DNA of 64,000 bases from Halomonas sp. BDJS001 (GTDB lineage Bacteria; Pseudomonadota; Gammaproteobacteria; Pseudomonadales; Halomonadaceae), in assembly GCF_026104355.1 (NCBI RefSeq), contig NZ_CP110535.1, forward strand, positions 1,488,001 through 1,552,000. Reading direction: 5' to 3'. Shown piece by piece: positions 2,335 to 42,137 of the stretch; position 1 is the stretch's first letter, and every line of letters begins with the position of its first letter. The translations under genes and the position numbers were made by a program. The notes beneath the pieces were generated by a model, which saw nothing but the letters and a program-made list of their open reading frames with translations, did no database searches and was not told the DNA's origin.

Positions 2335-3501
2335 ATGGCGCACCCCACCTCTAGAGGCTTAGCCCCTATCGCCGAGCTGGTGGACGATATCCGCCAGGGC
2401 AAAATGGTGATTCTCATGGACGACGAGGATCGCGAAAATGAGGGTGATATCATCATGGCCGCCGAAAAGGTGCAGGCCGAACATATCAACTTTATGGCCC
2501 GTTTCGCCCGTGGTTTGATCTGTATGCCGATGACCCGCGCCCGCTGCGAGCAGCTTAATCTGCCGCTGATGGTGCGCGATAACGGCTCCGGTTTTGGCAC
2601 CAAATTTACGCTTTCGATTGAGGCAACCGAAGGGGTCACGACCGGTATTTCCGCCGCGGATCGAGCGCGCACTGTACAGGCGGCGGTAGCGCCCCATGCC
2701 AAACCCTCTGATATCGTTCAGCCTGGGCATATCTTTCCGCTGATGGCTGAGCCGGGTGGCGTGCTGCGCCGTGCTGGTCACACGGAAGCGGCTTGCGACC
2801 TGGCTGCACTGGCAGGCTGTGACCCTAGCGGTGTGATCTGCGAAATCATGAACGATGATGGCAGCATGGCGCGTCGTCCGGAGCTGGAAGCCTTTGCCCA
2901 GGAGCACGGCATTAAAATCGGTACCATCGCGGATCTGATTCACTACCGTATCGTCAATGAGCAAACCATTGACCATCTGGAAGCGTCAACGGTAATGACC
3001 TCCCATGGCGAGCTCACGCTGCACGTTTTCCGTGATCGTATCCAGGGCGCCCATCACCTGGCATTGGTGAAGGGCCAGCCTACGCCTGAGCAAGCCACCA
3101 CGGTGCGCGTGCATCTTAGCGATACGCTCCGAGATGTGATGGGTTTAATGAAAGATGAGCAGTGCCGCTGGGATGCTCACCGCGCGCTGGAGGAAATTGC
3201 CGGTGCCGCGGCAGGCGTGTTTGTGCTGATCGATGATGGCCGTCCTCATCAGGATTTAAAAGATCAGCTCGATATCTTTTTGGATCGCGTGCGTCAGCCG
3301 CGTACCAGTGATTCCGACGGTGCCGGTAACTACTTAACCATTGGCACCGGCTCGCAGATTCTGCGCTATTTAGGCGTAGGTAAAATGCGTTTACTGAGTT
3401 CACCGTGGAAGTTCTCCGCGCTGTCCGGCTTTGACCTTGAAGTCGTCGAGCGACTAGGGCCTAACGACACGGCGTACGAGCCAACTTCTCAGCAAGACTA
3501 A
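2335..3501 (+). CDS. ribB: 3,4-dihydroxy-2-butanone 4-phosphate synthase with a degenerate GTP cyclohydrolase II-like domain (RibBX type)
   Basis: 388 residues from the ATG at 2335, which follows TTGGAGATACC; in-frame codons further upstream lack a ribosome site. Residues 1-205 are a full RibB domain ([20 protein letters not shown]) making the four-carbon unit of riboflavin from ribulose 5-phosphate. The second half is laid out like GTP cyclohydrolase II, but the zinc motif is lost: where the family has CLTGD...RCDCG this protein reads [17 protein letters not shown], and the RQEGRGIGL segment is [10 protein letters not shown]. It is therefore expected to supply only RibB activity, as described for RibBX proteins. 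No FMN riboswitch is visible in the 110 bp upstream. Confidence 0.9.
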
Positions 3502-3520
3502 TTTTAGCAGGAATAATTTG

Positions 3521-4009
3521 ATGCACTCCCTCACTCAAGTTGAAGGTACCTTTGTTGACGTCGATGGTCGCTATGTCATCGTTGTTGGCCGTTTTAACCA
3601 TCACGTGGTGGATAGCCTGGTAGAGGGCGCCGTCGACAGCTTGACTCGCCACGGCGTAGACGCCGAACATATTCATATTGTTCATGTGCCGGGCGCCTGG
3701 GAACTGCCACTGGCGGTAAAGCGCGTGCTCAAGGTGATGAAGCCCGATGCAGTGATTGCCCTGGGCGCGGTCATCCGCGGCGGAACGCCTCACTTTGAAT
3801 ACGTGGCAGGTGGCTGCAATACGGCGATTAATCACTTACAGCTTGAGTTCGACACTCCAGTGGCAAACGGTGTGTTGACCGTTGAAACCATCGAGCAAGC
3901 GATCGAGCGTGCGGGCACCAAAGCCGGTAACAAAGGCACCGAAGCTGCCATGGCCGCCATGGAAATGGTCTCTCTGCTCCGCGCACTGCCGGCAGGAGAT
4001 ACCCAATGA
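3521..4009 (+). CDS. ribH: 6,7-dimethyl-8-ribityllumazine synthase
   Basis: A 162-residue lumazine synthase that condenses the RibB and RibD products. The family landmarks [23 protein letters not shown] and [16 protein letters not shown] are present; the usual threonine/aspartate after IRG is replaced by GTPHFE in the normal position. ATG 3521 has AGGA nine bases upstream; an adjacent TTG at 3518 would add one residue. It overlaps nusB by four bases. Confidence 0.95.
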
Positions 4010-4500
4010 GCGAGCGCAAACCCTCTGCTGCTCAGCAGGGCCGCCACGCTGCGCGCGAGTTAACCGTGCAAGGGCTTTATCAGTGGCACATGACGGGAAA
4101 ATCCATCACCACCATTGAAGCCGAGTTTCGTAGCCAAGTGGCTGACGATGACCTGGAAGATCATGAAAACTGGGTAAAGGTAATGGAGATCGCCGATAAG
4201 GCGCTGTTTCACGAACTGCTCCATAACACCGTGCGTTTTAAGGCGGAACTGGATCGTGAAATCTCTCCCCTGCTAGACCGCCGTCTGGAAGATCTGGATG
4301 CAGTCGAGTTGGCAATACTACGGTTGGGCGCTTACGAGCTTTCACGGCGCATGGAAGTACCCTATCGTGTAGTGATTAACGAAGGCGTTGAGCTGGCTAA
4401 GTCATTTGGCGCCACCGACGGCCATAAATACGTGAACGGCATTCTCGACAAGCTAGCGATACGCTTGCGTAGTGCCGAGGTCAGCGCTCGTCGTCTCTGA
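4006..4500 (+). CDS. nusB: Transcription antitermination factor NusB
   Basis: The 164-residue all-helical protein has the family segments [19 protein letters not shown] near the start, [22 protein letters not shown] in the middle, and [13 protein letters not shown] followed by [11 protein letters not shown] near the end. NusB binds boxA RNA with NusE (S10) and supports rRNA antitermination. Position between ribH and thiL is the standard gammaproteobacterial arrangement, and the four-base overlap with ribH indicates cotranscription. Confidence 0.95.
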
Positions 4501-4536
4501 ACGCGAGCGGTATGACAATGCGTTTAAGGGGCCTTT

Positions 4537-5526
4537 GTGCTTGCCGAATTTGATTTGATTCGACGCTACTTTATGTCGTCGCAGGAGGCGTCGACCGCGT
4601 CAAATGGCGTCGCACTGGGATGTGGAGACGATGCCACGCTGCTGCTACCGCAAGCAGGCCAACAGCTGTCTGTGAGCGTTGATACCTCGGTAGTGGATGT
4701 ACACTTTCCCCGCGAAGCCCCGGCATTTGCGATAGGTCACCGTGCGTTGGCCGTTGCGCTGAGCGACTTGGCTGCCATGGGGGCGACATCACGCTGGTGT
4801 TTAATGGCGTTGACGCTGGATCAGCGCCAGTTTGCCGATGACGAAGCTATCCATGCTTGGCTGGCAGACTATGCGCGTGGCTTTCATGCCCTTAGCCAGC
4901 TGCACGCCACAACGCTGGTGGGGGGCGATGTCACGTCTGGTGCGCTCTCCATAGGGGTTACCGTAATGGGCGAAGTGCCGGTAGGCGAAGCCCTGACCCG
5001 TGGCGGTGCCCAGGTAGGCGATGTGATCGCCGTCACTGGCGCACTTGGTGGCGGGGCCGGCGGGCTGGCGCTTTGGCAGCAGGGCGAGCGCGATTTGACG
5101 CATCCGCTGCTAAGTCGCTATCTATTGCCACAACCTCGCTTAGCGGCGGGCTTGGCGTTGCGTGGTTTAGCCACCGCTGCGCTGGATATTTCCGACGGGC
5201 TGCTGGCTGACTTGGCGCATATTCGTGACGCCTCGCAGGTGGGAGCCGTCATCGCGTTAGACGCTTTGCCTCTGGCCGATGCGCTGGAAAGCTCCTTAGG
5301 CCGGGAAGCTGCACTAAAGGCGGCACTTTCCGGTGGGGATGATTACGAATTACTGGTTACCCTCGGTGCTGACGGTGTCGCAGAGGCGCAACAGCGTTTA
5401 GCGCCATTGGGGCTCTCGCTAACCGTCATCGGCCACTGTTGTGAAGCACTAGGTGTTAGTGCCTCTGACCAGAGTGACCTCAGTGACTACGCCGGTTGGC
5501 AGCATTTTAGTGGGGAAGCGCCATGA
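4537..5526 (+). CDS. thiL: Thiamine-monophosphate kinase
   Basis: The 329-residue product phosphorylates thiamine monophosphate to the diphosphate cofactor. Visible landmarks are LGCGDDATLL (metal-binding aspartates), VDTSVVDVHFP, ALSDLAAMGA, VGGDVTSG, and DISDGLLADLAH, in the order of the PurM/ThiL fold. GTG at 4537 is the likely start because LAEFDLIRRYF matches the usual ThiL N-terminus. It sits 36 bp after nusB and overlaps pgpA by four bases. Confidence 0.94.
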   Translation: MLAEFDLIRRYFMSSQEASTASNGVALGCGDDATLLLPQAGQQLSVSVDTSVVDVHFPREAPAFAIGHRALAVALSDLAAMGATSRWCLMALTLDQRQFADDEAIHAWLADYARGFHALSQLHATTLVGGDVTSGALSIGVTVMGEVPVGEALTRGGAQVGDVIAVTGALGGGAGGLALWQQGERDLTHPLLSRYLLPQPRLAAGLALRGLATAALDISDGLLADLAHIRDASQVGAVIALDALPLADALESSLGREAALKAALSGGDDYELLVTLGADGVAEAQQRLAPLGLSLTVIGHCCEALGVSASDQSDLSDYAGWQHFSGEAP

Positions 5527-5996
5527 ATCGTGCACCAAAAAGTGTCTGGCGTCGCCCAACGCATTTTTTTGCCTTTGGTTTAGGTAGTGGTACGGTGCCT
5601 TGGGCACCGGGCACCTTCGGCACGCTAGCGGCAATTCCGTTTTACTGGATGATGGCGGAATTGCCCCTGGGATGGTACCTGAGCATCTGTTTTGTCACTT
5701 TCGTGGTGGGGGTTTGGTTATGCGACAAAACGTCTCACGACTTAGGTGTCCATGACCACTCAGGCATCGTGTGGGATGAGTTTGTCGGTTATTGGCTGAC
5801 CATGGCGGCGGTGCCTTTTTCGTGGGAAGCTGCGTTGTGGGGCTTTATTGTATTTCGCATCTTCGATGTCTTTAAACCCTGGCCGATACGTTGGGCAGAT
5901 CGCCGTGTAGCGGGCGGTTTTGGCATTATGATTGATGATGTGATGGCAGGGATCTACGCCTGGAGTACTATGCACCTGTGGTTCTGGCTGCACTAA
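5523..5996 (+). CDS. pgpA: Phosphatidylglycerophosphatase A
   Basis: A 157-residue inner-membrane enzyme that dephosphorylates phosphatidylglycerophosphate to phosphatidylglycerol. It shows GLGSGTVPWAPGTFGTLAA, then D-HDHSGIVWDEFVGY with the acidic residues of the active site, and several hydrophobic segments. It closes the nrdR-to-pgpA run and starts inside the thiL stop region. Three perfect GAGTGGT heptamers follow seven bases after its stop codon. Confidence 0.93.
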   Translation: MNRAPKSVWRRPTHFFAFGLGSGTVPWAPGTFGTLAAIPFYWMMAELPLGWYLSICFVTFVVGVWLCDKTSHDLGVHDHSGIVWDEFVGYWLTMAAVPFSWEAALWGFIVFRIFDVFKPWPIRWADRRVAGGFGIMIDDVMAGIYAWSTMHLWFWLH

Positions 5997-6003
5997 GCTG
6001 ATT

Positions 6004-6024
6004 GAGTGGTGAGTGGTGAGTGGT
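6004..6024 (+). repeat. Tandem heptamer tract (GAGTGGT x3) after pgpA
   Basis: Three perfect copies of GAGTGGT stand end to end, beginning seven bases after the pgpA stop. Tracts of the related heptamer GTGAGGN occur at 17841 and 62881, also just after stop codons and in the same orientation relative to the gene. Confidence 0.8.
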
Positions 6025-6098
6025 AAATAGAGCTCAGGAGCGGTTGATAACTTTTTTCGAGAGCATTGGCTGCAAGGCGTTGGCTTCAAGGAGGTAGC

Positions 6099-7355
6099 AT
6101 GCGCAAGGAACGTCTGATTGTCCCCACACTGGCGATCATCGCCATCGTGTGGGCGGCCGCGCAGCTTCTCTCAAGCGTGCTTTTTGAGCGTAGCTTGCGC
6201 CAAGCGCTTGAGGACCTGGAAGCGCGGGGGGAGTGGCGCGTCAACCGTACTGAGAACCACCAAGGCTGGTTAAGTTCCCAGGGTAGGTTGATTTTGTCAC
6301 CACTGCTGGGTCGCCCCTGGCGGCTCGAGCTCACCTATAGCGCACGTCACGGTATTTTAAGCACGGATGTTGAAGGCACGGTGCTACCTCGCCTTGATAC
6401 CGTATTGCAGCAAGCGGTGGGTGAAGTCACTGCGCCCTCGGTGCCGCGCTGGCAAGGGCGCTATCATACCCTTAGCGGCCATAGCGAAGTGCGCCTTGCC
6501 CTTGCCCCCTTCGTTATCCAACAAAATGGTCGCGAGTTAGCCGTCCGCGGCGGTCGGCTGCGCCTGGAAGGTGTTTTTGGTGATTGGCGACTACGTGCGC
6601 TGTTTGACCAGCTCACCCTGATGGATGGCATGGCCCAACTCGCACTAGGCCCCACAGAGCTGGAGAGCCGCTATACCTATATTGATGATGCTTACAATTT
6701 TGCTCAACGCGACCACCTGCATATTGAAACGCTGACGTTGAGCTACCCCTCCTATGATATCCAGCTGTCTCCCCTCGATTTGAATAGCCACATGGTGCTG
6801 GATGAGAGCGAGCTGCGTATTAAAGGCGACCTGACAATAGGCGACGTGATGGTACCTTCTGAAGCGCCGGACATGCCACTACTAAACGGCCGTATAGCGT
6901 TGGAGCTCTCCCGGCTGAATGCCGATGCGGTTCGTAATGTGATTCGTCGTTTGCGCCAGGAAGCTGCCTGGGGAGACGCGACGCTACCCATGGCGGAAGG
7001 GCTGCTAGCCCGCCTTGAGCCGGATTTGCGCAAAGTCCTTAGCGACTCGCCGCGTTTAGATGTCACGACGGTTGCTATGGATAGCCCGCTGTTGGGTATT
7101 CGCCTGGATGCGGATGGCGCGCTGTTTTTTGATGCCCGTCAGTTGGATGAGCTCAGCGTGATTCATCTCGACAAAGAGAAAGAGCAGGCGAAATGGCTGG
7201 AGCGTATCGATGGCGACTTCACCTGGCACGACGCGCCCACCGTCGCCGCGCTATGGTTAGGGCTGCCGCTGGGAACGCGGGAGCTGCAGTTTGATGTAGT
7301 TCGCGGCGTATGGCGAGTCAACGGCCGCCCAATGCCCGAGCTCTGGCCTCAATAA
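6099..7355 (+). CDS. DUF945 (YdgA-like) family protein
   Basis: 418 residues from the ATG at 6099, which has AAGGAGG at ideal spacing. It begins with a short basic stretch and a hydrophobic segment (about residues 8-28, IVPTLAIIAIVWAAAQLL), so it is likely anchored in the inner membrane with a large periplasmic part. The body has the beta-rich pattern of the DUF945/YdgA family (SRGRLILSPLLG-like start, repeated short strands). No catalytic motif is visible and the function is unknown. It stands alone between pgpA and lon. Confidence 0.7.
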   Translation: MRKERLIVPTLAIIAIVWAAAQLLSSVLFERSLRQALEDLEARGEWRVNRTENHQGWLSSQGRLILSPLLGRPWRLELTYSARHGILSTDVEGTVLPRLDTVLQQAVGEVTAPSVPRWQGRYHTLSGHSEVRLALAPFVIQQNGRELAVRGGRLRLEGVFGDWRLRALFDQLTLMDGMAQLALGPTELESRYTYIDDAYNFAQRDHLHIETLTLSYPSYDIQLSPLDLNSHMVLDESELRIKGDLTIGDVMVPSEAPDMPLLNGRIALELSRLNADAVRNVIRRLRQEAAWGDATLPMAEGLLARLEPDLRKVLSDSPRLDVTTVAMDSPLLGIRLDADGALFFDARQLDELSVIHLDKEKEQAKWLERIDGDFTWHDAPTVAALWLGLPLGTRELQFDVVRGVWRVNGRPMPELWPQ

Positions 7356-30424: not shown

Positions 30425-30959
30425 TCATGGGGCGGTATCTTCGGTATCTTCGGTGTGTTCGATCAACCGATCGGCCGCATCGTATCTGTATTGCTGATCC
30501 CAGTCAACGGGCGTTGCCCAGAGCACTTCACTCCCGCTGGTGGGTAGCACCCACCGCATCGGTGACGGTGGTAGGGTGGTAGGGCAGGTCGGCATTGTCA
30601 TAGGCAAAAGCGGTGGTGCCTTCCGGCCCAGTGACCGCCAGCGGATGACCGAGGTCGTTGCGCGTGATCTGCCAGCGCTGATTCTCAGGGCCTTCAATGC
30701 TCACAGGTTGCCCCAGGGCATCCCGCTCAATGGCCCAACGCGTGCCGTCCGGGCCGGTCTGGGCAATCACTTGACCGTGGTCGTCCCGCTCAATCAGCGT
30801 CTCGTGACCCAGCGGATCTACCGTCGCCACCTTGAGACCCGCACGGTCATAGCGGGACTCAATGCGCGAGCCGTCGGCGCGGGTGTGGGCCGTCCAGCGG
30901 CGGCCAGGGCCACTGCCCACAAAGTGGTAGCGCTCCTCCCGGCCAAGTATGTTTAACAC
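30425..30959 (-). pseudogene. Rhs core remnant
   Basis: On the minus strand, 30959-30528 encodes about 140 residues nearly identical to the middle of the VgrG-Rhs protein (GREERYHFVGSGPGRRW through GATHQRE). The frame then breaks near 30530 and continues in another frame as DWDQQYRYDAADRLIE to a stop at 30425. It has no start, no VgrG part and no complete tip, so it is debris from an earlier Rhs copy at the far end of the island. Confidence 0.85.
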
Positions 30960-30969
30960 AGACCTGTGA

Positions 30970-31204
30970 TTAACTTCTTATTACTGATCCTTTTTTTGTA
31001 AGAAAAATTAGAATAGCAACCCCTAAAGCTATTAATAAAATGGAGTAAATTTTTTTTAGATTTTCATCTTGTAACACACCCCCTCGCCCTATTTCTCCTG
31101 TGAAAAAACATTGATACCAGCAGCTATTGACAGCACTCCAAGAAGCAAAAAACAAAATTAATTTTTTTAGCTTTTCTTAGTAGTTTTTTTTGATATTTCT
31201 TCAT
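30970..31204 (-). pseudogene. Candidate immunity gene of the distal Rhs tip, apparently frameshifted
   Basis: An ATG at 31204 overlaps the stop of the orphan Rhs tip by four bases (ATGA), the coupling expected of an immunity gene. It reads MKKYQKKLLRKAKKINFVF and then meets a stop after 26 codons. The other frames continue as hydrophobic stretches, first LLLGVLSIAAGINVFSQEK and then IYSILLIALGVAILIFLTKK to a stop at 30970. Two indels, one in a T-run near 31150 and one near 31085, would join them into a two-helix membrane protein of about 75 residues. A 61-residue frame from a TTG at 31155 is the longest single ORF. Strongly A/T-rich compared with neighbours. Confidence 0.4.
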
Positions 31205-32376
31205 CTCAAGGCCTCTTTGGGGCTTGAGATGAAGTCTATTAAAAAACCGCCAGCACCATAAAAGTCCGGAGTAGGACTAGTTCCTCCCACAGCGCTATCA
31301 ATGAAATCAATAGCCCTTTGCTGAACTACTGGATTAGCCATCCCTACTGCTGCACCCGGCGATACAGTCGCAACGCTGCACATCGCATGTAGGCTGAACT
31401 GATTGGCGCTTGCGGCAGCAGCGCTACCAGTTCCTAACGCCGTTTTTATAGCAAAGGGTGCGGCGGCTAATACCTTTGGCCCTTCAGCAGCAATGGCTGC
31501 TGCGGGGATGGTTGCATTGCGTGTTCCTCCTTGGTATCTCAGTGCTTCTGCGTATTGTGGATCTTTCACAAAGGCTGACATGCTGGATGGGAATAATGCA
31601 CCAATACCGGGACGGTAATCCCCACCTGTCATGTGCTGTCCCGCAGGTTCTGGTGTAGGAGCTGGCATATTAGCACCATAGGCTTCACCCGCTGGAATGC
31701 TAAGCGGTTCTAAATGATGGAAGCCATAGCCACTCAACCCCAACGGATCCACCATGCTTATTGGGTTAGTGACATAGCCATACAAATTCATACCACCGTT
31801 GAGTCCAATCGGATCCTGGCTAATATACCTACCTTGCTGCGGGTCATAATAACGGTGGCGGTTGTAGTAAAGCCCACTCTCTTCATCGTGCCACTGCCCC
31901 TGGAACCGGATCGGTTGGGTGACGTTGCGCACGGCGCGCTGGTTTTTGACCGCTGCCCAGTCGTCGGGTTCGGCTAACCAGCGGGGTTGGCCGTTGGGGG
32001 TGACCAGTTGCATGGGCGTGCCCAGGGCATCGGTGATATAGGCGCTGAGTACTTGGCCTTGTTCAGTATCATCAATACGCAGCATGGGCACAAAACTTCC
32101 CGGCTCGTAGACCACAGTGGTGCGCTGATTGTCGGTTTCTTCCCTAACGATGCGATCACCGTCCCAGCCGTAGTGGGTGGTGGCGGTGGTGCCGTTGGTA
32201 TGGCGCACGGTTTTGCTGATGCGTCTTCCCAGGCCGTCGTAGCGGGTGCCGTTGAGTTGGGTGAGGCGGTTATCTGTTAGCCCTTGCTGCTTGTCTTGCT
32301 GCTGCTCTAACCGACTACCTGCCGCGTCCACTGAGTAGCGGTAGACGGCTAGTATTTGGTCGATAGTGTGAGTCAT
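31201..32376 (-). CDS. Orphan Rhs C-terminal tip with toxin domain (distal)
   Basis: 391 residues. The first ~210 are Rhs core nearly identical to the large protein upstream and end at the hyperconserved DPIGLNGGMNLYGY...DPLGL. Behind it lies a different tail of about 175 residues (SGYGFHHLEPLSIPAG...) with an alanine-rich hydrophobic centre (AAAIAAEGPKVLAAAPFAIK). I do not recognise the tail. The core has an internal deletion: TQLNGTRYDGLGRRISK joins two RYDG copies and skips about 48 residues. It lacks the VgrG part, so it is probably silent until recombined onto the full-length gene. Confidence 0.75.
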   Translation of the reverse strand: MTHTIDQILAVYRYSVDAAGSRLEQQQDKQQGLTDNRLTQLNGTRYDGLGRRISKTVRHTNGTTATTHYGWDGDRIVREETDNQRTTVVYEPGSFVPMLRIDDTEQGQVLSAYITDALGTPMQLVTPNGQPRWLAEPDDWAAVKNQRAVRNVTQPIRFQGQWHDEESGLYYNRHRYYDPQQGRYISQDPIGLNGGMNLYGYVTNPISMVDPLGLSGYGFHHLEPLSIPAGEAYGANMPAPTPEPAGQHMTGGDYRPGIGALFPSSMSAFVKDPQYAEALRYQGGTRNATIPAAAIAAEGPKVLAAAPFAIKTALGTGSAAAASANQFSLHAMCSVATVSPGAAVGMANPVVQQRAIDFIDSAVGGTSPTPDFYGAGGFLIDFISSPKEALR

Positions 32377-32500: not shown

Positions 32501-32749
32501 TTATCGGCGATTCTTTTTATCCCTTTTTACATCTTTTCCTTTTTGATGTTTATCTAGGTAGTCACCGAAGCCTTGTATAAGAAGTATGAATGTGGTGCCA
32601 ATCGCTATTACGCCAGAGATCCTTAACACCCACATCAGTAGCTCCCACTTCTCCACTACGAAACTCTTATCAGATCCAAGCGCGAGTATGGCGCCACTCG
32701 CAAAAAAAATCATAAAAGATGAGAGTCGGATTTTATTGATTAATTTCAT
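32501..32749 (-). CDS. Candidate immunity protein, two-helix membrane protein
   Basis: 82 residues with two clear membrane segments (about 11-28, SFMIFFASGAILALGS; about 40-62, WVLRISGVIAIGTTFILLIQ) and a very basic tail (KHQKGKDVKRDKKNRR). Its ATG is one base after the TGA of the preceding orphan Rhs tip. I do not recognise a family. Position directly after a polymorphic Rhs tail, small size, low G+C and membrane location all fit an immunity protein against a membrane-acting toxin. Confidence 0.65.
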   Translation of the reverse strand: MKLINKIRLSSFMIFFASGAILALGSDKSFVVEKWELLMWVLRISGVIAIGTTFILLIQGFGDYLDKHQKGKDVKRDKKNRR

Positions 32750-32750
32750 A

Positions 32751-34067
32751 TCATTTCTCCCTATCTCCCTTTCTTAAAACCGTAGTGGTTGTTTTACAGT
32801 GCTGAATTCCACCTGCTAGGCCAAAACTAGGCCCAAGCCAACCGCTTGCTCCAGCTAAAGCCCCTCCACCAACATCAATAGATGCACCGCCTCCTTTAAT
32901 AACAGCACCGCGCACAAAAGGCCCCCAAGTTTCTGAAACGCCATCTTCAAGGGGAGCGGAGCCAACACTCGCATTTCCTCCAACGCCTGTCCCTCTAAAT
33001 ATACCTAGGCCATGCTGTTGGCATTCAGTCATGACCCAGGCAGCGTTACCAACATTGTCGAACTTTAAGCCCGTCGACACTGTTTGGCCGAATACACCGC
33101 CGAATGTTTCTGCAGAAGCGTTTCCTTCACCGGTTATAACAATATTTTCAGCAGCCCTACTCACAGTGTTGGATTGACTATAAGGCCCGCCTCCCAGGCC
33201 ATAGACTCCACTGAGCCCTTGTGGGTCTACTTCGATGCTTGGTGCAACCGAATATTGATACATGTTCATCCCGCCCCTTAACCCAATCGGATCCTGACTA
33301 ATATACCTGCCTTGCTGCGGGTCATAATACCGATGACGGTTGTAGTAGAGCCCACTCTCTTCATCGTGCCACTGCCCCTGGAACCGTATCGGTTGGGTGA
33401 GGTTGCGCACGGCGCGTTGGTTCTTGACCGCCGCCCAGTCGTCGGGTTCGGCGAGCCAGCGGGGTTGGCCGTTGGGGGTGACCAACTGCATGGGTGTGCC
33501 CAGGGCGTCGGTGATGTAGGCACTGAGCACTTGGCCTTGCTGGGTATCATCAATTCTGAGCATGGGCACAAAACTGCCCGGCTCGTAGACCACTGTCGTG
33601 CGCTGGTTGTCCGTTTCTTCGCGGACGATGCGATCACCGTCCCAGCCGTAGTGGGTGGTGGCGGTGGTGCCGTTGGTATGGCGCACGGTTTTGCTGATGC
33701 GTCTTCCCAGGCCGTCATAACGGTAAGTGGCTTCGCGGGTCGCCCCCAGCTCGCTGGCGTGGATCAGGTGCACTAAGCGATTGGCGCCGTCGTAGCCCAG
33801 GGTAAGGCGTTCGCCGTTGGGCTGTTGGCGCTCAATCAGGTTGCCTGCACCGTCGTAGCGGTAGCGCGCACCGTTAAGCTGAGTGAGGCGGTTATCCGTC
33901 AGTCCTTGCTGCTTGTCGACACCCTGTTCTAACCGATTACCTGCCGCGTCCACGCTGTAGCGGTGGGCGTGGTCGCCGTGCTGGCTGCCGATTAAACGAC
34001 CGGCAGCATCGTAGCTGTAGGCGATGACTTTGGAGGCGGGATCACCTTCCAGGCTGCGGAAGCTCAT
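32751..34067 (-). CDS. Orphan Rhs C-terminal tip with glycine-rich toxin domain (middle)
   Basis: 438 residues from the first in-frame ATG. Homology to the large Rhs core continues upstream in the same frame to about 34168 (WHTYGSAHLH), with a deletion joining DALHRET directly to LGRMSFR. The core ends DPIGLRGGMNMYQY...DPQGL. The remaining ~154 residues are new: glycine-rich, with FGQTVSTGLKFDNVGNAAW and GGASIDVGGGALAGASGWLG. I do not recognise this domain. There is no ribosome site before the ATG, so expression as it stands is doubtful. Confidence 0.72.
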   Translation of the reverse strand: MSFRSLEGDPASKVIAYSYDAAGRLIGSQHGDHAHRYSVDAAGNRLEQGVDKQQGLTDNRLTQLNGARYRYDGAGNLIERQQPNGERLTLGYDGANRLVHLIHASELGATREATYRYDGLGRRISKTVRHTNGTTATTHYGWDGDRIVREETDNQRTTVVYEPGSFVPMLRIDDTQQGQVLSAYITDALGTPMQLVTPNGQPRWLAEPDDWAAVKNQRAVRNLTQPIRFQGQWHDEESGLYYNRHRYYDPQQGRYISQDPIGLRGGMNMYQYSVAPSIEVDPQGLSGVYGLGGGPYSQSNTVSRAAENIVITGEGNASAETFGGVFGQTVSTGLKFDNVGNAAWVMTECQQHGLGIFRGTGVGGNASVGSAPLEDGVSETWGPFVRGAVIKGGGASIDVGGGALAGASGWLGPSFGLAGGIQHCKTTTTVLRKGDREK

Positions 34068-34327: not shown

Positions 34328-35032
34328 TTATTCTATGAATTCAGGAGAATAAATTATTTTTAGTTTATTTTTTGCGAAATATCCTAGTGCATGCCCACAG
34401 CCTTCAGCAAGTCTAACTGCTGGAGGTCTAAATGCTTCTAAGTCACGATAGCACCACCATCTTTCAGGCCCACCTAAGCTTTTTCTAGCTAGGAGGTAGC
34501 CTACAAGCATTAAGAAATATTTATAAATGTGATAGGTTCGAGTGCCCGTTCGACAAAATACATGGAAGTTTAAGCTAGTGGCATGGCCTCTCTTAGCAGC
34601 TTTTTCAAAAAATAATCTTGCTTTCTTGAGGTCGCTTACAGTACCCCCCTGATAGAAGTATCGGTTAAAGTGCATGTAGCCTTTCTGGTAACTGGCTTTG
34701 CGTGGGCATATTTTTTCCGCTTGATCAAAATAAGATAAAGCAATAGCTTCGTTTGGCTCTCCATAGTACCCTCGCAGGAAGCCGAGTCCTGCTGCACATA
34801 GAGATCCTGCATTTAACTGTACTGTAGAAGTTTCCAAAAGCTTAATTGCGGTAGAAATATCTCTTTTGCATCCTTTGCCTAGGCTAAGATACCAACTTTG
34901 CAAAACGAGAAAATCTGGATCATTGCTCTGAGCTCTTGAAACTATTTTTTTGTAAATGTCGGCGTCACTTAATTTGCTCTCCCACGAGCAGGTTTTTAAA
35001 TAAAAAACAGAGTCATGATAAAGATCTTTCAT
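34328..35032 (-). CDS. Sel1-like repeat protein, candidate immunity protein of the VgrG-Rhs toxin
   Basis: 234 residues from the ATG at 35032, which lies four bases after the VgrG-Rhs stop; the open frame extends back into the Rhs gene, but that part is only overlap. The middle has Sel1/TPR-like units (SWYLSLGKGCKRDISTAIKL, GYYGEPNEAIALSYFDQAEK, YQGGTVSDLKKARLFFEKAA). A hydrophobic stretch follows (YKYFLMLVGYLLA, about 175-187). Sel1-type proteins are a recurrent form of immunity or adaptor protein beside type VI effectors. A/T-rich relative to the Rhs core. The function is inferred from position. Confidence 0.72.
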   Translation of the reverse strand: MKDLYHDSVFYLKTCSWESKLSDADIYKKIVSRAQSNDPDFLVLQSWYLSLGKGCKRDISTAIKLLETSTVQLNAGSLCAAGLGFLRGYYGEPNEAIALSYFDQAEKICPRKASYQKGYMHFNRYFYQGGTVSDLKKARLFFEKAAKRGHATSLNFHVFCRTGTRTYHIYKYFLMLVGYLLARKSLGGPERWWCYRDLEAFRPPAVRLAEGCGHALGYFAKNKLKIIYSPEFIE

Positions 35033-35036
35033 TAGT

Positions 35037-38000
35037 TCACCTTTTGCAAATAAGCACGTCAGGTATTCTAACTCGTGGGCGAGTATCTCGTTGTACTTGT
35101 TCTGTGCGGTTACGCATATTTTCCTCTGCCAGAGTTTTAGCATCGGGTACGCTTGGTGATGGATCATCCATATTGGTAACTGCTTCGAAAATCACGTTTT
35201 GCGAAATTTCTTTTATACACTGGCCTACGGGCGATCGGTAGCCAGCATAGCCAGCAGAAACCACAGAGGGGCCGCTAATAACTGCACCTGCTAAAACAGA
35301 AGGAGCGTAAGCTGCTGTAACCGCTGCTCCTCTATTAAATTCCTGTATATCTGCCATTTGCTCAAGTGTGTCGCGGTCGCTCTCATGGATAGCAAAACCT
35401 GACATGGTGCGTGGAGCAATCAGGCCCATAAGTCCAAAGCCACCGTTCCCTTGACGAGGCTGGTTATCATACAACCCCAGCGGATCCACCATCTCCGTCG
35501 GATTAGTTACGTAACCATACAGGTTCGTGCCGCCATTAAGACCAATCGGATCCTGGCTGATATACCGCCCCTGCAGCGGGTCATAATAACGGTGGCGGTT
35601 GTAGTAGAGCCCACTCTCTTCATCGTGCCACTGGCCCTGGAACCGGATCGGTTGGGTGAGGTTGCGCACGGCGCGTTGGTTTTTGACCGCCGCCCAGTCG
35701 TCGGGTTCGGCGAGCCAGCGGGGTTGGCCGTTGGGGGTGACCAGCTGCATCGGGGTGCCCAGGGCATCGGTGATGTAAGCGCTGACTAGCTGGCCTTGCT
35801 GGGTATCATCAATTCTGAGCATGGGCACAAAACTGCCCGGCTCGTAGACCACGGTAGTGCGCCGGTTGTCGGTTTCTTCCCTAACGATGCGGTCGCCGTC
35901 CCAGCCGTAGTGGGTGGTGGCGGTGGTGCCGTTGGTGTGGCGCACGGTTTTGCTGATGCGTCTTCCCAGGCCGTCGTAACGGTAGGTGGCTTCGCGGGTC
36001 GCCCCCAGCTCGCTGGCGTGGATCAGGTGGACTAAGCGATTCGCACCGTCGTAGCCCAGGGTTAGGCGTTCACCGTTGGGCTGTTGGCGTTCGATCAGGT
36101 TGCCTGCACCGTCGTAGCGGTAACGCGCCCCGTTGAGTTGGGTGAGGCGGTTATCGGTCAGTCCTTGTTGCTTGTCTACCCCCTGCTCTAACCGATTGCC
36201 CGCCGCGTCCACGCTGTAGCGGTGGGCGTGGTCGCCGTGTTGGCTGCCGATTAAGCGACCGGCTGCGTCATAACTGTAGGCGATGACCTTGGAGGACTGA
36301 TCGCCTTGTAGCGCGCGGAAGCTCATGCGCCCCAGGGCGTCGTACTGGTACTGCTGTTCACTGGCGGCGCTGTTGGCACCGCGCAGGGTAAGGTGGTCTA
36401 ACTGGCCGAGGTGGGTGTAACCGCGTTCTAAAATTAATGGCTGGGCTTGATCGCTACTGTTAAGACGGCGCTGGGTCTCCCGGTGCAGGGCATCGGGTTC
36501 CAGGGCGATTTCCAGATCCAGGCCGGGGGCGCTCATACCGTGGAGGTGGCCGCTGCCGTAGGTGTGCCAGTTAAGCGCGGGTAGGTCGCCGAACTGGCTG
36601 GCCTGGGGCGCGCCGTTGGCGGTGAGCGTGTGCTGGTGCTGCCACTGCCAGCCACTCTCACCTGCTAGGCCCGCATGGCGCTGCTGTTCGCCGATTAACC
36701 GCTGGGCGTCGTCGTAGCTAAAAGTCACTTCACCGTGATCGTTGGTGACGCTAAGTAGCTGACCATTGGCACCCCACTGGTACTGCTCCGTGCTGGCCGG
36801 GGCGTGTTCCGTGGCAGGCAGATGGCGGGCAGTCAGTCGACCGGCTTCGTCATAGTCGTACCGGGTCACCAGTGGCTGGCCGTCCGGGCCTGGGCGGTTG
36901 GCTTCGATACGTTCGATCAGTCGTCCGGCGTCATCGTAGCGGTACTGCTGCTCGCGGCCATCGGGGCCGGTCTCGCTGGCTAAGCGATCCATCTCGTCAT
37001 AGGCAAAACGGTACACCGCGCCGTTGCCCAGGGTCAGTTCGCTCAAGCGGCCCACGTCATCGTAAGCGGTAAACTGCTGGCTGCCGTCGGCCTCGATGCG
37101 CTGCGCTGGGCGGCCGTGGTCATCAAAGAAGAACTGCTGCCTAAACCCTTGGGGGCCTTCCAGCTCCACCAAGCGTCCTAGGGAGTCCACATGGTGGTGC
37201 CAGTAGAGCCCGTCGGGAAGCTGGGTGGCGATACGTCGGCCCATCTCGTCGTGCTGGGTGCGGGTGGTTTCCCTCAGGGCGTTGGTGACGCTGGCCAGAT
37301 AGCCGTGGCGGTCGTAGGCGTACTCGGTACGCTGCTGTGAGCAGTCGATCTGGGCGGTGACCTGGCCTAGGGCGTTCCACTCGCGCTGGTGGGTGGCGCC
37401 GCCCGCATCGGTGACGGTGGTAGGGCGGTCGGGCAGGTCGGCATTGTCGTAGGCGAAGGCGGTAGTGCCTTCCGGCCCGGTGACTTCCAACGGATGGCCG
37501 AGGTCGTTACGCGTGATCTGCCAGCGCTGATCGTCAGGGCCTTCGATACTCACCGGCTGCCCGAGCGCATCGCGCTCAATGGCCCAGCGGGTACCGTCCG
37601 GGCCGGTCTGGGCAATCACTTGCCCATGCTCATCCCGCTCGATCAGCGTCTCGTGACCCAGCGGATCTACCGTCGCCACCTTGAGACCCGCACGGTCATA
37701 GCGGAACTCGATCCGCGAGCCGTCGGCGCGGGTGTGGGCCGTCCAGCGGCGGCCGGGGCCGCTGCCCACAAAGTGGTAGCGCTCCTCCCGGCCCAGGCTG
37801 TCGGTGACCAGGGTGTGATCCACGTGATAGGTATAAGAGCGCGCCAGGCCACCAGCTTCCTGCTGGCCGACCACGCGGCCATCCGGGGCGTGGCGATCCC
37901 AGGTATAGTGCGCTTCCATGCCCCCAGGTACCCGGTGGGCGGTCAGCATATGCGCCTGCCACTCAAACTCGCGCACTACCTCGCCGTGGCGGTGGCGCAC

Positions 38001-40826
38001 CGCAATCAAATCCCCCACGGGGCTATAGGAGTAGCGTACCAACCACTCATCCGCCGACTCACTATCGTGCTCTTGCACCAGCTTAACGCCGGTTAAGCGT
38101 TGCCCGGTATCACCCTGCATGGCGGGTAACAGACCATCGTAAACCATCTGGTAGTGGCGCTGGGCGCTGTCGATCACCGTGACCAGCAGACCGGATTCCC
38201 AGCGGTACTGGGTGGTGTAGCCGTTGCGGTCACGCTCTTCGATTAAGGGCCAGCGGCCGGCATCGGTGGCGGCTTTTTCTGTCGCAGAAGCAGCATTATC
38301 CGCGAAGACATAATACAAGCCGCTGGCATCGCTAAGGACGATACGCTCAGGATCACTGCGCAACGTCTCGTCTAACGCTTGCCAGCGAGGCGCGTTACTC
38401 TCTTCATCGATTGAGGCGCCCCCACGACGTATCCATAGCTGCTCGGTAGGCGAAAAGCGCGCCTGACCGGGGGCCAGTGCACCAAAGGTAATTCGACGGC
38501 CCTGGGCATCGTGAACAATGCAGGCGTTGTCTTTAAGGCTGATGGCCAGGGACTCGCCGGGTACCGACCAGCCTTGACCCAGGGCGCCTATTTGTTCGTT
38601 GCTGGAGAGGTAACCCCGGCTAAACACAAACGGCCGTGGCGCCGGTAGCGCAAAATCGGTCTCCGCGGGCAGCAGTTTGGCGCCCAGCAGCGGGTTGACT
38701 GGGCTACCCACCGCCGGCTCACAGGCACTGCAGTCGTCGGCCAGGCCATCGGTGATATCAATATCGTCCAGCGCTAGCGGCGTGGCCGCGGTGATATCGC
38801 TGCTGAGCAGCGGGGTCTGGTGCGGTTCGAGGGTAACGTCCTCGCTCTCCTCGGGCTCGGCTTCTCCCGGTAAGCGGGGTAGCACAATGGCGTGGCCCTG
38901 GCCACGCCCAGGGCTGCCGCCGGAGTTGATCTTGACCTGAGGGCCGACAATAGTCACACCGCCGGGGTCGAGCTTGATAAAGCTGCCGCCCGCTTTCAGG
39001 GTAATCTCACTGCCCGCTTCCAACACGATTTGGCTGCCCGCCTTGTGGTGCAGCTCGCGGCCGGTCTCCACCAGTTGGGCTTCACCGTAGACCTCATGGC
39101 GGGTTTGATCGACCTGAAGGTGGTCATCGCCCTTGATCTGGGTGTAGCGCTTGCCGTGGACGGTGAGGTGGTCGTCGTTGTGGATCTCGCTCAAACGGTT
39201 GCGATGGAGCTTAAGGTGGCTATCCCGGCGGATCTCCTCGGTGCGGTCGTTAAGGGTGAGCAGCTCCAGATCTTTTTGAGCGTGGAGCCAGATCTGCTCT
39301 TCGCCGGTGGCATCCTCAAAGCGCAGTTCGTTAAAGCCGGCCGATTTATGGCTCTGGGTACGAATCACCGTGCGGGTTTTGTGCTCCGGTAGCGGGTAGG
39401 GCGGGATATTCACCGCGTGGTAGGTGCGCCCGGTAATCAACGGCTGATCCGGGTCACCCTCCAAATGTGATATTATAACTTCATGCCCGATCCTAGGGAT
39501 CGCCATGCTGCCATAGCCACCGCCTGCCCAGCCCTGGGCCACCCGTACCCAACAGCTCGCCGTCTCGTTGGGTTCGGCGTAGCGATCCCAGGGGAACTGC
39601 ACCTTCACCCGGCCGTGTTCGTCGCAGTAGATCTCCTCGCCTTCCGGGCCGACCACAAAGGCCACCTGGGGGCCATCGACCCGCGGCTTGGGGTTGGGCA
39701 CCGGGCGGAAGGTCTGATCTCGGGGCATGATCACCACATCGTTGTGGTAACGGGTCATTAGCTCGCCTGACTGGGCCGAACTGGCTCCACTCCCATTACC
39801 ACCCCGCGCCATACCGTCCTCTTCCAACGCCTGTGGCTGCTCGCCGTGGTGCACCACCGAGACCACCTGCCACGCCTGGTTAAGGCTATCGATATCGTGG
39901 TCGGTGAGGGTAAAGCAGAGGCCGGGAGCCAGTTCGGGGAGATCGCTCTCCGCCTCGGCGGTGAGGGCATCGGCGCGCAGAGACTCTAAGCGGTGGCGGG
40001 TAAAGGGCTTGCCGGAGGCATCCTTCTTATAACGCCCAGGGTAATCAAAGTGTTCGTAATCCTCCCGCTGGGCATGCTCCCCCAATCCTGGCGCGAGGTG
40101 CTCGTGAATCTGGGCGTAGGGCGGGTTCTTAAAAGTATAGTCTTTAAGCATCGCCGAGGCGGGGCGCACCCGGCTGGCCTGGCGGAGTTTACGGATATGG
40201 CGTCGGGGCGGGGTGCCCCCGGCGCGGCCGTGGTAGACGCGCTCGCCGACGCTGGGCAGCACCACGGTGGCATCGGCAAACACCAGCTCGTGTTTACCGC
40301 CTTCGGCGTTCTCAAACTCATGGAAATAGAAACAGCCCTCTTCGGCGGCCACGCGCTCGATAAAGGCCAGATCGGTCTCCCGGTACTGCACCAGATACTC
40401 ACGATCCAGGGGCGTGCGGGTCGTAGCAAAGCCGATATCGGTCAGGCCACGCTCGCTGGCCAGGGTGGTGATGGCGTCAAAAGGTGAGGTGTCCTGAAAG
40501 ATGCGCGAATTATGGCGCAGCGATAACCGCCACAGCGCAGGGCGAATCTCCACCCGATAGAAGCTGCGCCGGTGTCCGCGATCGCCCCGATGCAGCTCTG
40601 CGACTATCCCATGCACCCGGCGCAGCGGCTCACCGTCCTGCCAAATGCTGAGCGTCGCCTCCTGATCCAAACAGTCGCTGGGCGATAGGGTGTGAGTACG
40701 GCTGGCAAAATCGACGGAGAGGGTAAACGGCTCAGAGAGCGCTTCGCGATGGGTAAAGCGAACCACGGCGGTATCATCGGCCCCGGGTAAAGTCAGGGTA
40801 AATTGCAGGCCCGTGCTATCTGCCAT
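35037..40826 (-). CDS. VgrG-Rhs fusion effector (type VI spike plus Rhs cocoon plus C-terminal toxin)
   Basis: 1929 residues. About 1-640 are a complete VgrG spike: gp27-like part (FTLTLPGADDTAVVRF, ETDLAFIERVAAEEGCFYF), gp5 OB-fold (DEHGRVKVQFPWDRY near 403, CWVRVAQGWAGGGYG), and a DUF2345-like needle (LTLNDRTEEI to IVGPQVKINSGG). A linker leads to an Rhs start at about 700 (SPVNPLLGAKLLPAETDFAL). Long YD repeats follow, and the core ends DPIGLNGGTNLYGY...DPLGL at about 1785. The last 144 residues are an unrecognised toxin with a hydrophobic centre (APSVLAGAVISGPSVVSAGY). I see no PAAR or EagR-binding segment. The immunity candidate is immediately downstream. Confidence 0.9.
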   Translation of the reverse strand: MADSTGLQFTLTLPGADDTAVVRFTHREALSEPFTLSVDFASRTHTLSPSDCLDQEATLSIWQDGEPLRRVHGIVAELHRGDRGHRRSFYRVEIRPALWRLSLRHNSRIFQDTSPFDAITTLASERGLTDIGFATTRTPLDREYLVQYRETDLAFIERVAAEEGCFYFHEFENAEGGKHELVFADATVVLPSVGERVYHGRAGGTPPRRHIRKLRQASRVRPASAMLKDYTFKNPPYAQIHEHLAPGLGEHAQREDYEHFDYPGRYKKDASGKPFTRHRLESLRADALTAEAESDLPELAPGLCFTLTDHDIDSLNQAWQVVSVVHHGEQPQALEEDGMARGGNGSGASSAQSGELMTRYHNDVVIMPRDQTFRPVPNPKPRVDGPQVAFVVGPEGEEIYCDEHGRVKVQFPWDRYAEPNETASCWVRVAQGWAGGGYGSMAIPRIGHEVIISHLEGDPDQPLITGRTYHAVNIPPYPLPEHKTRTVIRTQSHKSAGFNELRFEDATGEEQIWLHAQKDLELLTLNDRTEEIRRDSHLKLHRNRLSEIHNDDHLTVHGKRYTQIKGDDHLQVDQTRHEVYGEAQLVETGRELHHKAGSQIVLEAGSEITLKAGGSFIKLDPGGVTIVGPQVKINSGGSPGRGQGHAIVLPRLPGEAEPEESEDVTLEPHQTPLLSSDITAATPLALDDIDITDGLADDCSACEPAVGSPVNPLLGAKLLPAETDFALPAPRPFVFSRGYLSSNEQIGALGQGWSVPGESLAISLKDNACIVHDAQGRRITFGALAPGQARFSPTEQLWIRRGGASIDEESNAPRWQALDETLRSDPERIVLSDASGLYYVFADNAASATEKAATDAGRWPLIEERDRNGYTTQYRWESGLLVTVIDSAQRHYQMVYDGLLPAMQGDTGQRLTGVKLVQEHDSESADEWLVRYSYSPVGDLIAVRHRHGEVVREFEWQAHMLTAHRVPGGMEAHYTWDRHAPDGRVVGQQEAGGLARSYTYHVDHTLVTDSLGREERYHFVGSGPGRRWTAHTRADGSRIEFRYDRAGLKVATVDPLGHETLIERDEHGQVIAQTGPDGTRWAIERDALGQPVSIEGPDDQRWQITRNDLGHPLEVTGPEGTTAFAYDNADLPDRPTTVTDAGGATHQREWNALGQVTAQIDCSQQRTEYAYDRHGYLASVTNALRETTRTQHDEMGRRIATQLPDGLYWHHHVDSLGRLVELEGPQGFRQQFFFDDHGRPAQRIEADGSQQFTAYDDVGRLSELTLGNGAVYRFAYDEMDRLASETGPDGREQQYRYDDAGRLIERIEANRPGPDGQPLVTRYDYDEAGRLTARHLPATEHAPASTEQYQWGANGQLLSVTNDHGEVTFSYDDAQRLIGEQQRHAGLAGESGWQWQHQHTLTANGAPQASQFGDLPALNWHTYGSGHLHGMSAPGLDLEIALEPDALHRETQRRLNSSDQAQPLILERGYTHLGQLDHLTLRGANSAASEQQYQYDALGRMSFRALQGDQSSKVIAYSYDAAGRLIGSQHGDHAHRYSVDAAGNRLEQGVDKQQGLTDNRLTQLNGARYRYDGAGNLIERQQPNGERLTLGYDGANRLVHLIHASELGATREATYRYDGLGRRISKTVRHTNGTTATTHYGWDGDRIVREETDNRRTTVVYEPGSFVPMLRIDDTQQGQLVSAYITDALGTPMQLVTPNGQPRWLAEPDDWAAVKNQRAVRNLTQPIRFQGQWHDEESGLYYNRHRYYDPLQGRYISQDPIGLNGGTNLYGYVTNPTEMVDPLGLYDNQPRQGNGGFGLMGLIAPRTMSGFAIHESDRDTLEQMADIQEFNRGAAVTAAYAPSVLAGAVISGPSVVSAGYAGYRSPVGQCIKEISQNVIFEAVTNMDDPSPSVPDAKTLAEENMRNRTEQVQRDTRPRVRIPDVLICKR

Positions 40827-41300: not shown

Positions 41301-42137
41301 ATGGCAGCACCACGCTCGCGTCGGCGCCGTAGTAAAGGGGTTTACCGCGAGTGGACCCTAACAGAGATGGATCTCCTTAAGCGCCATCATGGCGAGTTGA
41401 CGTTTAAAGAGCTTCAGGCCCAGCATCTGCCCCATCGTCCGATTGGAGGTATAAAGCGGATGGCTTACTTACTGGGGCTGAAAAAGCTGGAATATGAACG
41501 GGAGTATGGTCAGCCACGCTGGACAGAAGAGGAGTTACGCATTGTTGCGCAGCATTTTCTGTCACTTAAAACAAGCGAGATAAGAGATCGTTTCCTGCCT
41601 CATCGTAGTATCGTAGCCATCCGTCAGGCAGGAAGGAAACTCGGTCTACGGGTGTTTTCCGTGGTTCACTGGACTGAAAAAGAGCTGGAAATCTTACGTC
41701 AAGAGTTCCCGCTGGGCGGGCCTAAGCGGGTTAACCAACGACTACCCCATCGTACGATAGATGCCATTAAGCTGCGCAGCCGAGTAGAGGGGGTCGTTTA
41801 CGTACCGCACGGTGATGGGGAGTCGGGAGATATTTGGAGCACTGAGGAGCTTGAGCTTCTAAAGGCTAACTGTGAACTACCCGCCTCAGAGCTGGCCAAA
41901 CTCTTTCCACATCGGGAAAAGAAAGCGGTAATCAACAAACGTTATAAATTGCAGTGGAACCCGGTTAAGTTCTGGTCAGCAGAGGAGGTGGAACGCTTGC
42001 GCCAGCACCTTGATGCGTCTGTGGACGAGTTATGTGTTCTCTTCCCAGATAGACCGCGGGAGGGGGTTAGACTTAAACGCAATAAGCTCCGTCGGAAAAA
42101 AGCCGCTGCTGAAGGCTTAGGAGTACGCAGGGCGTAA
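41301..42137 (+). CDS. Protein with five tandem Myb/SANT-like repeats
   Basis: 278 very basic residues; AGGAGGACAAT before the ATG is a strong start. Five units of about 45 residues repeat the pattern W-(S/T)-x-x-E-(x)2-x-L...LPHR...I-x-x-(R/K): starts at WTLTEMDLL (about 18), RWTEEELRI (about 73), HWTEKELEI (about 121), IWSTEELEL (about 176) and FWSAEEVER (about 225). Each ends with a basic recognition-helix-like segment (GIKRMAYLLGL, AIRQAGRKLGL, AIKLRSRVEGV). The form is that of Myb/SANT or phage-type homeodomain-like DNA-binding domains. I do not recognise the protein. Function as a multivalent DNA-binding protein is inference. Confidence 0.7.
   Translation: MAAPRSRRRRSKGVYREWTLTEMDLLKRHHGELTFKELQAQHLPHRPIGGIKRMAYLLGLKKLEYEREYGQPRWTEEELRIVAQHFLSLKTSEIRDRFLPHRSIVAIRQAGRKLGLRVFSVVHWTEKELEILRQEFPLGGPKRVNQRLPHRTIDAIKLRSRVEGVVYVPHGDGESGDIWSTEELELLKANCELPASELAKLFPHREKKAVINKRYKLQWNPVKFWSAEEVERLRQHLDASVDELCVLFPDRPREGVRLKRNKLRRKKAAAEGLGVRRA

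Follow-up and report, generated by a model that had tools for sequence, protein, structure and literature searches.

The EagR-type PAAR-Rhs effectors of the type VI secretion system (T6SS), such as RhsA of P. protegens and Rhs1 of P. laumondii, are described as cocoon proteins with two self-cuts and polymorphic tips, and RhsA has in addition a seal peptide (PMC8765631). The protein analyzed here resembles them in these traits, with self-cuts that are predicted, and differs from them in their prePAAR and PAAR domains, transmembrane segments and EagR chaperone, none of which was found in the chain or, for the chaperone, in the genome. Pseudomonas aeruginosa Tse5 (PDB 8CP6), a stand-alone Rhs pore former, has the closest cocoon (43% identity, TM 0.85) and the same N-terminal cut sequence, seal and DPxG...DPxG protease motif (PMC10684867); unlike the present protein it is a separate polypeptide, whose 47-residue N-terminal fragment contains a part required for secretion, termed PAAR-like in that report and named half-PAAR here. 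Fusions of VgrG to Rhs are already known as well, as the preliminary description of this DNA had allowed, PDB entry 8QJA being designated ‘Advenella mimigardefordensis VgrG-Rhs core’. The corresponding paper is presumably Kielkopf 2024. Like the present fusion, the Advenella protein is one chain (1,879 residues, VgrG match in 12-528, Rhs core match to 1013-1879) with the same cocoon fold (TM 0.78-0.79 of query), but its cocoon is only 24-25% identical and, in a weak alignment, no PVNP proline stands at the aligned site. The compared 8QJA chains hold 1,020-1,026 residues, so that the spike is not visible there. A 2026 paper names fusion to VgrG as a less common possibility for Rhs proteins (PMC13324451). 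Orphan rhs-CT/immunity arrays (e.g. in Dickeya, as described in PMC6329079) resemble the present locus in their displaced tip-immunity cassettes behind a full gene, whereas here the cassettes trail a VgrG-Rhs fusion and not a separate rhs gene. No description of a Tse5-type fusion lineage that lost the half-PAAR and kept the seal and cut site was found in the literature searched, and what is new, as judged by sequence comparison, is this anatomy of the VgrG-cocoon junction.

The window, by which is meant the whole 64,000-nucleotide stretch analyzed, comes from Halomonas sp. BDJS001, a salt-loving bacterium whose genome is a single 4.97-Mb contig. It contains a VgrG-Rhs fusion gene (frame at C1:1523040-1528826 in the genome) with the following parts, in window coordinates:

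35037-40826, minus strand: VgrG-Rhs fusion gene, a single open frame of 1,929 aa with an ATG start
38907..40826, minus strand: VgrG spike part, residues 1-640 (Pfam and NCBIfam matches)
38751..38906, minus strand: linker, residues 641-692, the variable VgrG tail (pLDDT and column conservation)
38703..38750, minus strand: seal peptide DGLADDCSACEPAVGS, residues 693-708, with CxxC at 699-702 (conservation and profile)
38700..38705, minus strand: predicted N-terminal self-cleavage bond S708/P709 (PVNPLLGAKLLPAE conservation, Tse5 alignment)
35472..38702, minus strand: Rhs cocoon, residues 709-1785 (Foldseek to Tse5 and 8qja)
35472..35552, minus strand: D1759PIGL...D1781PLGL, a C-terminal aspartyl autoprotease motif as reported from Tse5 (PMC10684867)
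35040..35471, minus strand: C-terminal toxin tip, residues 1786-1929 (144 residues, behind DPLGL 1781-1785)

The order of VgrG (1-640), linker, cocoon (709-1785) and 144-residue tip follows from Pfam and NCBIfam. On the VgrG side, Pfam recognizes Phage_GPD (27-330), an OB domain (403-469) and a gp5 trimerisation domain (487-590), NCBIfam recognizes TssI/VgrG (15-536), and PDB VgrG chains align to residues 15-638 or 27-640; the spike is thus made up of gp27-like, OB and gp5-like prism parts and a weak DUF2345-like stretch (593-629). On the Rhs side, DUF6531 (707-781) is followed by 13 Rhs-repeat stretches, and the Rhs-associated core domain of NCBIfam ends at residue 1785. With a complete VgrG and an Rhs core in one frame, the protein has the make-up of a VgrG-fused (specialised) Rhs effector. 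The preliminary description, which gave no strand, had read VgrG, cocoon and tip as one polypeptide, with residues 1-640 as VgrG and a tip of 144 unrecognised residues; a minus-strand frame of 1,929 residues bears out the first point, the agreement of Pfam, NCBIfam and PDB chain matches the second, and the third stands in that no Pfam or NCBIfam family matched the tip at E<=0.01.

The best PDB match to the fusion by sequence is Tse5 (818 bits). An AlphaFold model of residues 640-1785 (25 sequences, mean pLDDT 77.9) was compared by Foldseek to the Tse5 shell chain 8cp6_B (TM 0.85/0.90, 43% identity) and to 8qja (TM 0.78-0.79/0.87-0.88, 24-25% identity). The protein therefore has a Tse5-fold cocoon starting at the PVNP cut site, and D1759 and D1781, both in DPxGL motifs, form a putative Tse5-type aspartyl autoprotease; the N-terminal PAAR-like part of Tse5 was found neither by profile nor by Pfam.

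To survey the family, as the preliminary description had proposed, residues 560-900 were used as a query against 275 family genomes (E<=1e-20). Among the matches listed, 93 of the 275 genomes matched, mostly in the VgrG part alone, and the whole junction was matched at 27 loci in 23 genomes, the window's included. The weakest whole-junction match scored 438 bits, and the next listed match, in Terasakiispira (G192), scored 244 bits and covered the Rhs part only. One frame of 1,885-2,078 aa runs from VgrG to tip in 22 of the 27 fusions, including one that starts ~60 residues late (G252); the VgrG part is interrupted or shortened in four (G250, G203, G026, G086), which counts against the explanation preferred below, and one fusion ends at a contig end (G004). 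The cocoons of the other fusions are 70-92% identical to the window's. The genome collection yielded 33 loci, 20 of which (L081-L100) repeat the family fusions already counted and are entered as Vreelandella, Halomonas, Billgrantia and Franzmannia. An order-wide survey (390 genomes drawn evenly, those outside the family being uncounted; E<=1e-15) returned two matches (G000 and G027), both within the family.

These copies also bear on whether the long frame might stem from misassembly or misannotation, or be a dead gene, a suspicion to which the four damaged VgrG parts and the rhs remnants downstream of the fusion could give rise. With the genome in one contig, a single long frame in 22 of 27 copies from many separate assemblies, and 70-100% conservation of head, seal and cocoon, such an origin is exceedingly improbable. 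An assembly artefact was rejected on the strength of the one-contig genome and the 27 loci in 23 of the 275 family genomes; the artefactual split of which the preliminary description had warned did not appear, and the VgrG-Rhs frame is no artefact.

Within the family, head and cocoon differ in their identity to the window's fusion: 72% vs 91% (G261; L071) and 76% vs 90% (L059). In L071 and L059, heads and cocoons seem to have been exchanged near the join, and VgrG heads, as in G261, are shuffled as well as tips. At two Pasteurellaceae loci, L111 (Aggregatibacter; 3568-6414) and L112 (Muribacter; 3418-7034), a single frame combines a VgrG head (40-42% identity) with the beginning of an Rhs part (45% identity over 93 residues, 30% over 372). 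Shortly behind that beginning the L111 frame ends, and the L112 frame runs off its contig. These frames suggest that the VgrG-Rhs fusion may have happened, or spread, more than once. In both, about 120-135 residues precede the VgrG match.

The sequence around the join is conserved unevenly. The linker is predicted to be disordered to about residue 682 (pLDDT <50 over 640-682). Columns invariant across the 27 fusions number 9 of 42 in residues 641-682 and none of 10 in 683-692, then 10 of 16 in 693-708 and 24 of 27 in 709-735, and both the CxxC of the seal peptide and PVNPLLGAKLLPAE at the cut site are present in every one of the 27, the latter identically. Tse5 has counterparts of both elements: its NT fragment ends in a stretch that matches residues 693-708, and its N-terminal self-cut lies where PVNP stands at 709 in the fusion. 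The shell chain 8cp6_B starts exactly at the proline aligned with P709, because Tse5 cuts itself there (K47/P48; PMC10684867). By this match, VgrG and cocoon may not be covalently joined in the mature protein. The single joined polypeptide of the preliminary description accordingly stands for the frame as translated, but the Tse5-type seal (693-708) and the PVNP cut site at 709 had been overlooked. The CxxC pair (699-702, window 38721-38732) is also found in Terasakiispira, and some stand-alone relatives keep only one Cys; the pair might serve as a metal site or form a disulfide.

Several points count against the predicted cut and its importance. The proline is preceded by Ser in the fusion but by Lys in Tse5. 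How the N-terminal Rhs cut works chemically is reported as unknown (PMC10684867, PMC8765631). According to PMC10684867, killing by Tse5 was unchanged when the cut was blocked, which suggests that the cut may be unimportant and weighs against the preferred explanation, although Rhs1 and TseI are reported there to need it. It is conceivable that the N-terminal cut does not occur at all and that the protein is a plain specialised VgrG with a covalently attached cocoon, comparable to those with C-terminal enzyme domains. The Advenella fusion lends this some weight, as the absence of the proline at the aligned place (18.6 bits, E 0.0084, a weak alignment) implies that a VgrG-Rhs fusion can probably exist without this cut; yet PVNPLLGAKLLPAE is the reported cut site of Tse5 (PMC10684867) and, unlike the adjoining linker, is identical in all 27 fusions, so that a permanently covalent cocoon is judged improbable. 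In the AlphaFold model, block means of pLDDT are 57-74 over residues 680-699 and <50 over 701-744; plugging by the seal is therefore not demonstrated by the model, whose confidence pattern fits a flexible linker followed by a partly ordered seal.

What was lost at the join is indicated by the stand-alone relatives (Thauera, Azoarcus/Parazoarcus, Pseudomonas, Tahibacter), in which about 47-52 residues precede the cut, in the order half-PAAR, seal peptide of ~16 residues and cut site PVNP. The N-terminus of one of these (L104) matches Tse5-NT over its full length at 1e-7, and its first 28 residues match the short PDB chains 9rce_c and 4jiv_D (0.0008-0.001), the latter of which we take to be a PAAR protein. 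The Pfam family PAAR_motif matched five of six stand-alone N-termini, partially and always under the 27-bit cut-off (E 3e-5 to 0.02), the sixth being that of Pseudomonas (L107); the apparent PAAR character of these N-termini is thus drawn from sub-threshold matches, which counts against the preferred explanation. Ten stand-alone N-termini, two of which are identical, were combined into a half-PAAR/seal profile. The Tse5-NT control matches this profile over positions 1-46, whereas the best matches of all 27 fusions and of Terasakiispira lie only within positions 29-47, and none of the 27 fusions gave a significant match to positions 1-28. Additional insignificant matches were seen in L073 and L074 (positions 21-40, i-E ~0.8) and at a single position in L071.

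Other searches for a docking domain agree with the profile. PAAR is absent from the 12 Pfam families listed for the whole chain at E<=1, residues 640-720 have no Pfam match up to E=10, and for residues 640-738 (99 residues) the Tse5 shell is the sole relative in the PDB at the same limit. A search for DcrB/EagR gave no match in the host genome and, in a control of 14 genomes, gave one in E. coli. The preliminary description, which saw no PAAR or Eag-binding segment, is upheld by these results, and the protein lacks the marks of a PAAR-Rhs effector with EagR. A PAAR or EagR region hidden within residues 640-720 was rejected as a candidate, Pfam being empty there and the half-PAAR profile matching the seal part only. 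As the fusions match the profile only within 29-47, the half-PAAR is gone and the seal kept: on this comparison, all 27 fusions retain seal and cut site and lack the half-PAAR, the VgrG tail occupies the place that the half-PAAR has in stand-alone Tse5-type proteins, and the best reading is that VgrG replaced it.

Terasakiispira papahanaumokuakeensis (G192, L109) has an arrangement that suggests an intermediate toward fusion. Its rhs is a separate gene of 1,280 residues with a 40-residue N-terminus and no half-PAAR. The start codon of this gene and the stop codon of the frame before it share an ATGA, and the first residues of that earlier frame are VgrG-like by eye (from the visible ends of the frame only). 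The series from a gene with half-PAAR, through an overlapping gene without it, to the fusion suggests how a docking domain becomes dispensable. Among nine stand-alone loci compared (L101-L108 and L110), a VgrG head was found upstream of rhs in three (L102, L103, L108; E<=1e-8) and not in the other six, two of which (L101, L107) have <400 upstream bases.

Taken together, the fusion is considered probably a T6SS effector composed of a specialised VgrG and a Tse5-type cocoon, with a swappable tip and a self-cut cocoon plugged by its seal. The chain would fold with the tip enclosed in the cocoon, which would make two cuts in its own chain, one behind L1785 that releases the tip within the cocoon and one at S708/P709. 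From the second cut on, VgrG would end in the seal peptide, and this plug in the cocoon mouth would be the sole hold between VgrG and cocoon. A VgrG trimer would then carry up to three cocoons without PAAR docking of its own, adaptor or EagR, and on firing the tethered seal peptide may be pulled out, opening the cocoon. In support, Tse5 fragments are reported to stay associated after cutting, the shell anchoring the final 18 residues of NT (PMC10684867), and for RhsA, whose cocoon has an outer size of 86 x 65 A, withdrawal of the seal peptide during delivery has been proposed (PMC8765631). A cocoon might instead serve only as a folding and safety cage that is left in the producer, VgrG drawing out the seal peptide and the freed tip, as in the Tse15 model. 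The Tse15 cage of A. baumannii is indeed reported to be often not secreted, its N-terminal part staying with VgrG (PMC11461821), but secretion in E. cloacae is reported to need full-length RhsA and not PAAR alone (PMC8668125), and a cage left behind is considered doubtful here.

The seal and cut site at the join thus hint at the way in which the toxin capsule travels and is opened. To our knowledge, the number of Rhs cocoons per T6SS spike and what opens them are unsettled; a natural fusion, in which the spike:cocoon ratio is fixed, the docking part gone and the seal and cut kept, would make both measurable on one purified protein. Up to three cocoons per spike, as in the preliminary description, are possible. 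That the seal peptides of one VgrG trimer plug three cocoons loaded by covalent birth, that their withdrawal opens all three at once, and that loss of the half-PAAR is how this loading evolved, is a further and unlikely proposition; if true, covalent birth would stand in for PAAR docking or chaperones.

How many cocoons a spike holds may depend also on the other VgrGs of the host. TssC is found at one place in the genome, within a T6SS cluster in which all ten proteins scanned were recognized (TssB, C, E, F, G, J, K, L, a ClpB-like ATPase and Hcp; TssM and TssA lay outside the scan), so that the fusion shares its genome with a T6SS. Four PAAR places are present, all outside the fusion. Of four other VgrGs, three share 85-90% identity with residues 1-575 of the fusion and the fourth shares 67%, which makes mixed trimers with fewer cocoons plausible. 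The fusion might thus trimerise with plain VgrGs, one or two cocoons per spike being usual and loading close to that of standard Rhs effectors. According to PMC8668125, assembly in A. dhakensis and, by report, V. cholerae needs several effectors, with mixed spikes or hybrid VgrGs and varied tails; set against this is the distance of the fusion locus (1.52 Mb) from the T6SS cluster (~3.86 Mb), and the chance that spikes are usually mixed is put only a little short of even.

The surroundings of 28 loci (the 27 fusions and Terasakiispira; up to four ORFs per side) revealed no upstream partner or adaptor common to all, the largest cluster of upstream genes having 8 members; at one locus (G053), the gene directly upstream is Hcp-like by eye. 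A divergent 278-aa gene (window 41301-42137, plus strand) with no Pfam match over cut-off adjoins the fusion, and a close relative by eye lies beside the fusion in G259 (L060). Elsewhere in the host genome, vgrG and a three-gene module occur in two copies at two chromosomal sites (L017:4844-10253 and L018:8351-13772), the module genes (384, 523 and 151 aa) being of equal lengths and having equal first 40 residues, gene by gene.

The region behind the fusion contains putative immunity genes and displaced pieces of rhs:

34328..35032, minus strand: likely immunity gene, 234 aa, Sel1 repeat, with its ATG 4 bases behind the fusion stop
32751..34067, minus strand: displaced toxin-tip cassette 2, cocoon 3' end and 153-residue tip (90% DNA identity, 821 bases)
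32501..32749, minus strand: 82-aa gene, likely the immunity gene for the cassette 2 tip (L054, L061 and L066 have relatives directly behind the related tips)
31201..32376, minus strand: displaced toxin-tip cassette 1, shorter core piece and 177-residue tip (89% DNA identity, 511 bases)
30970..31155, minus strand: 61-aa gene with a hydrophobic stretch, candidate for immunity to the cassette 1 tip (weak relatives behind related tips in L071 and L060)
30516..30947, minus strand: cocoon-middle remnant, residues 1011-1154 (90% DNA identity, ends inside a longer match)

The fusion's own tip was also compared with a membrane-inserting pore former like Tse5-CT: its best 19-residue mean hydropathy is 1.45, and its single-sequence model is unusable (mean pLDDT 42). 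No Tse5-CT chain was among the 43 PDB matches of the fusion at E<=0.01, such a chain being possibly absent from the set. Where they can be aligned, the tips of other fusions share 0-26% identity with that of the window. In 26 other tips (25 fusions and Terasakiispira, the contig-cut copy having no tip), Pfam recognized five families at E<=0.01: DUF4225 in four tips, and RNAse_A_bac, Ntox16, TseH and DUF6279 in one each. The only relative of the window's tip in the 275 family genomes (G098, 57%) is on an orphan cassette, with core piece and tip in different frames, and directly behind it lies a 53% relative of the Sel1-repeat gene. The latter gene, whose Sel1 Pfam match came from a longer reading of its frame, is the likely, though putative, immunity gene of the fusion. 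A relative of it also lies near a different fusion in G027 (L078), in whose genome a matching tip was not found. With a variable tip, a conserved body and its own putative immunity gene, the fusion has the make-up of a polymorphic toxin.

The displaced tips have counterparts at the ends of other fusions: that of cassette 2 is 85% and 74% identical to the main tips in G250 and G235, and that of cassette 1 is 67% and 62% identical to those in G259 and G235. With orphan tips that are main tips elsewhere and core pieces 89-90% identical, the locus shows the usual rhs tip exchange, in which tips are swapped between genomes, probably through recombination where the cocoon sequence is conserved at its 3' end. 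Pieces of rhs lie downstream at 14 of the 28 loci compared.
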